From Pectobacterium sp. A5351 (GTDB lineage: Bacteria > Pseudomonadota > Gammaproteobacteria > Enterobacterales > Enterobacteriaceae), in assembly GCF_028335745.1 (NCBI RefSeq), contig NZ_CP116477.1:2728001-2792000 (forward strand): a stretch of DNA of 64,000 nt, given 5' to 3'. Within the stretch, counting starts at the first letter, position 1. Each line of letters starts with the position of its first letter. Made by a program: the position numbers and the translations under genes. The notes under the pieces are model-generated. The model did not search any database and was not told the DNA's origin. It saw only the letters and a program-made list of their open reading frames with translations. Shown here piece by piece: positions 21,573 through 36,123 of this stretch.

Positions 21573-21588
21573 TGTGATTAAAGTCACA
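21573..21588. promoter_or_regulatory. CRP-type binding site 1
   Basis: TGTGA-TTAAAG-TCACA is a perfect TGTGA-N6-TCACA CRP core, flanked by further symmetry (TTTT...AAAA). Confidence 0.8.
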
Positions 21589-21594
21589 AAAATG

Positions 21595-21623
21595 TTGAAA
21601 TCCGATTTCATCTTCGCTACCAT
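21595..21623 (+). promoter_or_regulatory. Candidate sigma-70 promoter of the small-protein gene
   Basis: -35 TTGAAA (21595-21600), a 17-bp spacer, and -10 TACCAT (21618-21623). The start site would be near 21630, inside the second CRP-type site. Confidence 0.55.
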
Positions 21624-21629
21624 TAAAAA

Positions 21630-21645
21630 CGTGATGAACATCACA
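21630..21645. promoter_or_regulatory. CRP-type binding site 2
   Basis: CGTGA-TGAACA-TCACA matches the CRP core at 9 of 10 positions. Its centre is 57 bp downstream of site 1 and it overlaps the predicted transcription start, a position that would normally repress. Confidence 0.6.
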
Positions 21646-21674
21646 TTTAACTAACCCGTTAGAGGAGTCTGATA

Positions 21675-21773
21675 ATGAAAACGTTTCGTAAAATCAGCAA
21701 ATTCTTTAAAAGAATGGGAGATGTTTATGTCAGTTATTGTGAACGTATTGGGTCAATCATCAGCCCGTTCTGA
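21675..21773 (+). CDS. Predicted 32-residue basic small protein
   Basis: A short frame with a strong ribosome site (AGAGGAG, 21661-21667, 7 nt before the ATG). The product begins MKTFRKISKFFKRMGD and ends CERIGSIISPF. The N-terminal half is lysine/arginine-rich and could form an amphipathic helix; there is no clear signal peptide or long membrane helix. It has its own promoter-like elements, two CRP-type palindromes and an 11-bp perfect terminator 19 nt after the stop, so a transcript of about 200 nt is expected. I do not recognise the family; it could also be a dual-function small RNA of the kind that encodes a short peptide. treB follows 200 bp later but is separated by the terminator. Confidence 0.65.
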   Translation: MKTFRKISKFFKRMGDVYVSYCERIGSIISPF

Positions 21774-21791
21774 TTGTGATATAAACAATCT

Positions 21792-21826
21792 CTAAAGCCG
21801 CCTCCTTACAGGCGGCTTTAGTTTTT
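21792..21826 (+). terminator. Terminator of the small-protein transcript
   Basis: A perfect 11-bp stem, CTAAAGCCGCC (21792-21802) and GGCGGCTTTAG (21811-21821), with an 8-nt loop, followed by TTTTT: a textbook intrinsic terminator. Confidence 0.92.
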
Positions 21827-25265: not shown

Positions 25266-25577
25266 TTAGCGCTTAGCCAGCAGTAATCCCAACACCAGAC
25301 CGACGGTGGCGCCGATACCGATACCGTGCCAGGGTTTGTCATGCACATACACATCAGCTTTGTCGGCCACCTGTTTTGCACGCGCATAATAGCTGTCTGT
25401 TACGCCAATGCGGGCTTTCACTTCCAGCAGCGCTTTTTCTGCTCCTTTTTTCAAATCAAGGTAGGCCTGATCGGCCTGATCGCCCGTATAGCGCAGTACC
25501 TCATCCAGCGTTTCAGACAGAAGTTTTAAATCATCATCGACACGAATTTCTTCAGGCTGTTTTTTGGTTGTCGCCAT
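25266..25577 (-). CDS. elaB: ElaB, DUF883 ribosome-associated membrane-anchored protein
   Basis: 103 residues. The acidic coiled N-terminus (IRVDDDLKLLSETLDEVLR) and the C-terminal membrane anchor (GIGIGATVGLVLGLLLAKR) match E. coli ElaB/YqjD/YgaM; conserved DSYYARAK...VHDKPW fits ElaB best. elaB also lies near nuoN in E. coli. The ATG at 25577 has GAAGGAAG upstream, so the longer frame to 25607 was rejected. Family proteins tether stationary-phase ribosomes to the membrane. A 17-bp tandem repeat lies just upstream. Confidence 0.88.
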   Translation of the reverse strand: MATTKKQPEEIRVDDDLKLLSETLDEVLRYTGDQADQAYLDLKKGAEKALLEVKARIGVTDSYYARAKQVADKADVYVHDKPWHGIGIGATVGLVLGLLLAKR

Positions 25578-25845
25578 AAAGTGCTTCCTTCTGTTATCAA
25601 AAGTCATTGGTTATGAAAAACCATTGGTTATGAAAAGTCATGAGTTATAAATCGTTGCCTTCTTAACTATAGACAATTTTTCCTGACTTCTATGGTTTCA
25701 GCAGACCAGATCATTCCTAAAACGTACCTTGCTTGCTCTTACTCCCGTTCAAGAACGTGGTGATTTTGCTGATAAAAAAACGCAGGGAGCGTTTTTCAAC
25801 GTCGCTTGCGACGGCCAGAAGGGTGGCAAGCAGGAAGCTCGCCAT
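25578..25845. other. Intergenic region between elaB and the nuo terminator
   Basis: No gene. It holds the elaB leader repeats and an AAAAACGC-AGGGA-GCGTTTTT hairpin (25776-25796) that could terminate in either direction. The rest shows nothing recognisable. Confidence 0.5.
25604..25654. repeat. 17-bp tandem repeats upstream of elaB
   Basis: Three units of 17 bp: TCATTGGTTATGAAAAA (25604-25620), CCATTGGTTATGAAAAG (25621-25637) and a diverged TCATGAGTTATAAATCG (25638-25654). They start 27 nt upstream of the elaB start codon, in the leader or core promoter. Confidence 0.8.
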
Positions 25846-35978: not shown

Positions 35979-36030
35979 AGTCAGCATGCTTCCATAATGG
36001 CCCGTGTTGCCACGAGCGCTAATCAAAAAT

Positions 36031-36123
36031 TCTGTATACCCTCATCTTTCAAATCGCAAATGCGTTGGCTACCTGCGCCTGAAATCTATTGGGTTTATAG
36101 AGGGTGGCTTATTTGCGCCACCC
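36031..36123. repeat. Palindromic element in the nuoF-nuoG spacer
   Basis: A 71-bp segment (36031-36101) has imperfect inverted ends, TCTGTATACCC and GGGTTTATAGA, and an internal TGCGTTGGCTAC. It is followed by a perfect 7-bp hairpin GGGTGGC / GCCACCC (36102-36123). The left half resembles the start of the 204-bp element at 53752 (shared TATAyCC, TCAT, CTTCAA or TTTCAA, CGTTGGCTAC), as does the right end (CCTGAAA, then ATT and a GG-TATAG-like end). It is probably a short copy of the same intergenic repeat family. Confidence 0.6.

Follow-up and report, generated by a model that had tools for sequence, protein, structure and literature searches.

A conserved, so far unnamed microprotein gene with two CRP-like palindromes at its promoter in Pectobacterium and related bacteria

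Closest described systems

CRP-controlled RNAs that also encode small proteins are represented by few described cases in the portions of the literature that were available, namely Spot 42/SpfP, AzuCR and VcdRP. The azuCR gene is reported to be repressed by CRP, its 28-residue product AzuC to up-regulate and partner GlpD, and the AzuCR RNA to pair with cadA and galE (PMC8672173, PMC10746267). For the vcdRP gene of Vibrio cholerae, CRP bound ahead of the -35 box is likewise reported to act as a repressor (PMC8672173).

The small gene described here is located at positions 21573-21826 of the window, that is, the whole stretch of 64,000 nucleotides of Pectobacterium sp. A5351 DNA that was analysed. 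Its likeness to VcdRP, as far as the latter is reported (PMC8672173), is found in the similar size of the 29-residue VcdP, in a CRP site ahead of the -35 box and in a presumed carbon control. It differs in that no CCCC occurs in 21629-21826, whereas VcdR carries a conserved base-pairing seed of four cytosines in its 3' part, and in a predicted transcript of about 200 nt, compared to 306 nt for VcdRP. Spot 42 is reported to combine CRP repression with the coding of a small protein (SpfP, 15 residues) on a short transcript, but the locus of the small gene has no Rfam match at the gathering score and its peptide is twice the length of SpfP.

The closest working model is AzuC: the gene is undescribed, while its functional kind is already known. 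Both azuCR and the small gene are stand-alone short genes with a terminator soon past the stop codon, a perfect palindrome exactly 6 nt ahead of the -35 box (in 38 of 39 loci of the small gene) and a second CRP-like site near the promoter. In E. coli azuCR, TGTGA-N6-TCACA is followed after 6 nt by TTGATT, with the palindrome centre 48.5 bp upstream of the annotated 5' end, and the second CRP-like site is found at -18.5, whereas the second palindrome of the small gene is centred at about +7.5. The window peptide is, like AzuC, basic, amphipathic and of similar size, but it lacks the KDVPPGAM end of AzuC.

Organisation of the locus

The features of the locus, in window coordinates, are as follows.

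21573-21588, no strand: CRP-like palindrome 1, TGTGA-TTAAAG-TCACA, a perfect TGTGA-N6-TCACA centred at about -49.5 from the predicted transcription start
21595-21600, plus strand: -35 box TTGAAA, starting 6 nt past palindrome 1
21618-21623, plus strand: -10 box TACCAT, spaced 17 bp from the -35 box
21630-21645, no strand: CRP-like palindrome 2, CGTGA-TGAACA-TCACA, 9/10 core bases, centred at about +7.5, over the predicted transcription start
21661-21667, plus strand: putative Shine-Dalgarno sequence AGAGGAG, read from the sequence
21675-21773, plus strand: 32-codon open reading frame MKTFRKISKFFKRMGDVYVSYCERIGSIISPF, from ATG at 21675 to TGA at 21771-21773, stop included
21774-21791, plus strand: short 3'UTR of 18 nt between the stop codon and the terminator stem
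21792-21826, plus strand: putative intrinsic terminator, with a stem at 21792-21821 (12 pairs, 6-nt loop) and T5 at 21822-21826

Direct reading located every element named in the original prediction: the perfect palindrome, the -35/-10 pair with its 17-bp spacing, AGAGGAG, the ATG, the 32 codons and the T5. Two details were corrected. The second CRP-like site is present, with 9 of 10 core bases, but covers the predicted transcription start and not the start codon; the terminator stem with its T5 is likewise present, with 12 pairs where 11 had been counted. The transcription start is placed at about 21630 from the position of the -10 box, which is itself weak.

A second frame of 22 codons (21727-21795, plus strand), with GGGAG six bases 5' of its ATG, overlaps the main frame and extends into the conserved 3'UTR. 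It was set aside, its start codon being absent in Dickeya-type loci and its product being altered by synonymous changes in the main frame.

Taken singly, the promoter hexamers and the terminator stem are at chance level (2 promoter-like sites compared to a shuffle mean of 1.5, and 2 terminator-like sites compared to 1.1). The palindromes were considered in the same way. The window holds 3 sites with at most one mismatch to TGTGAN6TCACA where 2.03 are expected, and two of these three fall at the small-gene promoter, 57 bp apart; the perfect pattern occurs at only 9 places in the 4.41-Mb genome, compared to 2 for a reversed control pattern. When the 160-nt upstream stretch was shuffled by mononucleotides 5000 times, two sites scoring at least 9/10 never arose. 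Unlike the single elements, two palindromes around one promoter are thus above chance.

Conservation and distribution

The 254-bp stretch was present in all 25 genomes of the genus, with 90-100% identity. Across these genomes the mean major-allele frequency was 0.97 for palindrome 1, 1.00 for the -35 box (which is invariant), 0.97 for the -10 box, 0.98 around palindrome 2, 0.96 for the open reading frame, 0.99 for the 3'UTR and 0.96 for the terminator stem, with intermediate values for the 17-bp spacer (0.92) and the T tract (0.87). The flanks were less conserved, at 0.78 over the 91 upstream and 0.84 over the 132 downstream bases. This comparison, of conserved elements with less conserved flanks, supplies the decisive evidence that the elements form one unit.

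A search of 392 genomes of the family with the peptide profile (A1) revealed matches in 21 at E<=0.01, of which 19 were convincing (E<=7.1e-11); these belong to eight genera, with five of the 19 in the own genus. The other two, in small genomes (E 0.002-0.003), were not convincing. Searches of the class (369 genomes) and of the order (295 genomes) yielded matches in the own genus only, besides four and three weak ones, respectively. These weak matches and the two from small genomes, all outside the eight genera, are attributed to chance, since they are fragmentary and some contain stops or fall within other frames. In at least one carrier genus the gene is not universal: in g41, to which G345 belongs, the genome G064 gave no match at E<=0.01. 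No similarity was found in E. coli genomes at E<=1e-5, nor in plasmids and phages at E<=1, and the own genome holds a single match.

In the protein database, 21 proteins were retrieved at E<=1, all of them at E<=2.1e-9. The named relatives are from Pectobacterium parmentieri, P. araliae, Dickeya solani, Musicola paradisiaca, Yersinia bercovieri, Y. massiliensis and Y. aleksiciae and, where named, they are annotated as hypothetical or uncharacterised proteins. From identical peptides, the genera g98, g15 and g41 are probably Dickeya, Musicola and Yersinia, respectively.

In the literature searched, no description of the gene was found. The available part of a P. atrosepticum sRNA paper (PMC4710047) contains nothing recognisable at the small-gene locus, a term search of a Y. 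pestis sORF paper (PMC8563848) found no mention, and the small gene is not among the Pectobacterium microproteins named in the accessible portion of PMC11188072. The Dickeya dadantii map (PMC9239193) states, in the portion available, that its start-site libraries excluded small RNAs shorter than 200 nt. The locus is a real, so far unnamed, conserved microprotein gene of soft-rot bacteria and some Yersinia.

Coding capacity and predicted peptide

Among the 25 genus sequences, whose pairs are not independent, pN/pS (ratio of means) was 0.229 over the whole open reading frame, and it was unevenly distributed: 0.482 in codons 1-9 and 0.036 in codons 10-32. The corresponding values were 0.159 for the GNAT gene (25 sequences) and 0.025 for treB (19 sequences, the six others having been dropped because the frame finder did not return them). 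Codons 10-32 are therefore under strong purifying selection.

All 39 loci (25 of the genus and 14 from elsewhere, after removal of L026, L030 and L036-L039, which duplicate places already included) retain both palindromes and the frame, including its ATG and the constant spacing between cysteine and stop. The original prediction, which was to fall if relatives showed frameshifts or loss of the start and ribosome-binding site, survives this comparison, since frame and palindromes are kept at every locus. Inspection by eye of the same 39 loci showed an SD-like purine-rich run before the ATG and terminator-like hairpins in most of them; the hairpin was imperfect in L035 and was not seen in L044 and L045.

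The peptides of the family have 29-32 residues and a core of roughly FxKxGDxYxxxCxRIGSxxSPF, whose C-terminal part CxRIGSxxSPF, including its distance to the stop, is nearly fixed among relatives. AlphaFold2 (A3) predicted one helix over residues 2-29 (mean pLDDT 78.3, pTM 0.35), and the hydrophobic moment over residues 1-18 was 0.74 (shuffle p 0.003). The net charge of the window peptide is +5, and it is +1 in the Dickeya-type and L045 peptides. As the best 18-mer has a mean hydrophobicity of -0.23, no membrane-spanning stretch is apparent; in addition, the fast evolution of the first nine codons weakens the case for a precise membrane-binding helix.

Database comparisons agree with a stand-alone small-protein gene of no described family, as had been proposed. 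The peptide had no hit in NCBIfam and Pfam at E<=10 or in PHROGs at E<=1, and none of 15 family members (0/15) matched an NCBIfam model at E<=10. The search of solved structures yielded a single weak match (E 0.018, chain sc-apCC-6-DPH-NR).

Promoter geometry across relatives

The promoters of the 39 loci were compared by taking the two best palindrome sites within 160 nt of each ATG. One -35/-10 pair flanked by two CRP-like palindromes was found in every locus. Palindrome 1 scored 10/10 in 29 loci and 9/10 in 10; palindrome 2 scored 10/10 in 2, 9/10 in 36 and 8/10 in one. The distance between the palindromes was 57 bp in 35/39 loci and 56-58 bp in all 39, and the gap from palindrome 1 to the -35 box was 6 nt in all loci except one, where it was 7 nt. 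With a start at about 21630 and palindrome centres at about -49.5 and +7.5, the pair would bracket the polymerase, and a distance of 57 bp corresponds to about 5.4 helical turns, which would place the palindromes on roughly opposite faces of the DNA. The Crp HTH domain (PF00325) was found at three places in the Pectobacterium sp. A5351 genome.

Relationship to AzuC

Orthology with AzuC was the strongest lead and was rejected. The window peptide did not match the model NF033642 ('stress response protein AzuC', cut-off 30 bits), which in a positive control recognised 14/14 AzuC members, that of Pectobacterium with 57.4 bits. Because of this, and because the genome has a separate AzuC gene, the window peptide is not AzuC. 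The separate orthologue lies outside the window, on the minus strand (L087 1929-2006; G000:C2:3404428-3404505), with an apparent GTG start and the same 57.4 bits against NF033642.

BLASTP gave no alignment between the window peptide and AzuC, and hhalign a probability of 19.5%. In a first shuffle test the score was reached by 10 and 16 of 1000 shuffles, and the reversed control scored 18.8 compared to 20.3. In the profile alignment, the score was reached by 4/600 free shuffles but by 34/600 shuffles preserving the pattern, and the reversed AzuC profile scored 17.0 compared to 18.8. The likeness thus does not appear to exceed the shared amphipathic pattern; it is one of anatomy, and descent is unproven.

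AzuC was found in 24/25 genomes of the genus, with one match (G021) partial and containing a stop, and in 10/14 carriers outside the genus, a tally that becomes 11/14 with G395, whose only match is another, g23-type peptide. AzuC-like matches were obtained in 41/149 genomes of the family at E<=0.01, the weakest being uncertain and one having a stop. The small gene adds a separate family, one that is well conserved, occurs in soft-rot plant pathogens and some Yersinia, and coexists with AzuC in most of the carriers examined. With a peptide motif this sharp and a promoter geometry this rigid, a standing question can be put to the test: why proteins of about 30 residues are repeatedly recruited to carbon control.

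A further AzuC-like peptide of 27 residues, MKIRAFFKDILDxYIKLFENAPKGGFF, is encoded by an open reading frame at position 1501 of L121-L124, in genus g23. None of 600 shuffles of either kind equalled its likeness to AzuC. In four loci its gene was read together with a double-CRP promoter of the E. coli azuCR type, and the one copy tested did not match NF033642.

Proposed function and alternative explanations

The analysis establishes the gene, the purifying selection on its frame, the conserved two-palindrome promoter and a predicted amphipathic helix; CRP binding, the direction of control, translation, membrane contact and the docking on a partner are inferred. In the reading that we prefer, at even odds (a probability of about 0.5) and by analogy with AzuC, the gene encodes a CRP-repressed, and thus glucose-induced, short amphipathic protein that is AzuC-like in action and docks through its C-terminus CxRIGSxxSPF. 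A monocistronic transcript of about 200 nt would encode the microprotein of 29-32 residues, and CRP-cAMP would repress the TTGAAA/TACCAT promoter through two dimers, the first bound directly ahead of the -35 box and the second across the start point. The protein would accordingly be made when cAMP is low, as on glucose or other PTS sugars. Its basic, amphipathic N-terminal helix may rest on the membrane surface, and CxRIGSxxSPF-COOH may dock on a metabolic enzyme or transporter and alter its activity, as reported for AzuC on GlpD. The protein would probably adjust metabolism when sugar is plentiful. Points that weigh against this reading are the weak -10 box, a palindrome 1 centre that matches neither a usual activating nor a proven repressing position, the location of the two sites on roughly opposite DNA faces, the fast evolution of the N-terminal codons, the lower charge of the Dickeya-type and L045 peptides, and a similarity to AzuC that does not exceed the amphipathic pattern.

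A broader version of the preferred reading is put forward tentatively. The small gene may represent a new family of CRP-sandwiched microproteins, in which two dimers 57 bp apart (+/-1 bp, in eight genera) on roughly opposite faces clamp one promoter; its product might be a glucose-induced dual-function RNA-protein beside AzuC, so that two (in g23, three) parallel CRP-controlled amphipathic microproteins would act on different metabolic targets.

Somewhat doubtful, as an alternative, is a dual-function RNA whose transcript would encode the peptide and also base-pair with carbon-metabolism mRNAs via the open reading frame or 3'UTR, as reported for AzuCR and VcdRP; the closest described RNAs of this kind are indeed reported to be dual-function. 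The mean pS of the open reading frame is low (0.178, compared to 0.282-0.534 in 22 treB windows and 0.333-0.406 in six GNAT windows of 32 codons each), but codon usage, or high expression of a short gene, might lower it as well. In the genus, only the -35 box is more conserved than the 18-nt 3'UTR, of whose columns 94% are invariant in the 25 genomes; outside the genus, however, it is shared with the sister genus g106 only and is not conserved in other genera. A fold clearly better than that of shuffles depends on the terminator (z -5.5 when it is included); without it, z ranged across 19 loci from -2.2 (in the window) to +1.7, in a cut that also removed the last few bases of the 3'UTR. In the covariation set of 18 sequences (17 of the 25 genus loci and L027), a two-sided change was found in 1/50 consensus pairs, and Rfam returned weak sub-threshold matches only. 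An RNA role at the level of the genus is possible. A long hairpin between the open reading frame and the 3'UTR was dropped, being strong only with the terminator and showing hardly any covariation. The sole Rfam match at the gathering score in the window is a nuoG RNA (RF01748), at 35989-36032 on the minus strand.

Activation by CRP, in which palindrome 1 would recruit polymerase, or a true start elsewhere would put one of the sites at -41.5 or -61.5, is unlikely. A CRP site usually activates from -41.5 or -61.5, and a protein bound across the start point is placed to block initiation. In favour of activation are the perfect palindrome 1 of 29/39 loci, the weakness of the -10 box, a trait of activator-dependent promoters, and the fact that the start site is a predicted one. 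With the conserved -35/-10 pair, however, the centre at about -49.5 misses the usual activating positions, without being a proven repressing one, and palindrome 2 lies over the start. In azuCR and vcdRP, moreover, where a site also lies upstream of the -35 box, repression is what has been reported. The site geometry and the parallel with AzuCR point to repression, a direction on which the original prediction had not decided.

A small membrane-active toxin of a type I toxin-antitoxin pair would share the size, amphipathic helix and basic charge of the peptide, but it is very improbable in view of the low hydrophobicity of the best 18-mer, with no apparent membrane-spanning stretch, of the single match in the own genome, of the retention in 25/25 genomes of the genus and of the lack of matches in plasmids and phages at E<=1.

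Genomic context

In the own genus, the frame finder returned the GNAT gene upstream in 25/25 loci and treB downstream in 19/25. Ten larger loci from seven other genera showed treBC-like genes downstream in four (L056, L057, L063 and L065). In L058, L060 and L064 the small gene is flanked by PhzF and by nuo genes, with no treBC in the interval, and in L059, L061 and L062 it is found in unrelated places. As treBC-like genes accompany only 4/10 of these relocated loci, the small gene is not a trehalose gene, and the special tie to the trehalose operon suggested by the original prediction is not borne out. A leader peptide with an attenuator of the downstream trehalose operon, for which the short frame followed by a terminator ahead of treBC in the window and a weak sub-threshold match to a Phe leader (24.3 bits, cut-off 55) might speak, is hardly credible given the conservation of the peptide in relocated loci that mostly lack treBC-like genes downstream, the distance of about 200 nt from the terminator to treB and the lack of a run of regulatory codons.

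Two loci of genus g23 (L057 6328-8348 and L063 6320-9100) have two consecutive treB-like frames downstream of the small gene. In the window, just past treC, an elaB-like stress protein gene is found on the minus strand at 25266-25607 (NF007709, 165.5 bits).
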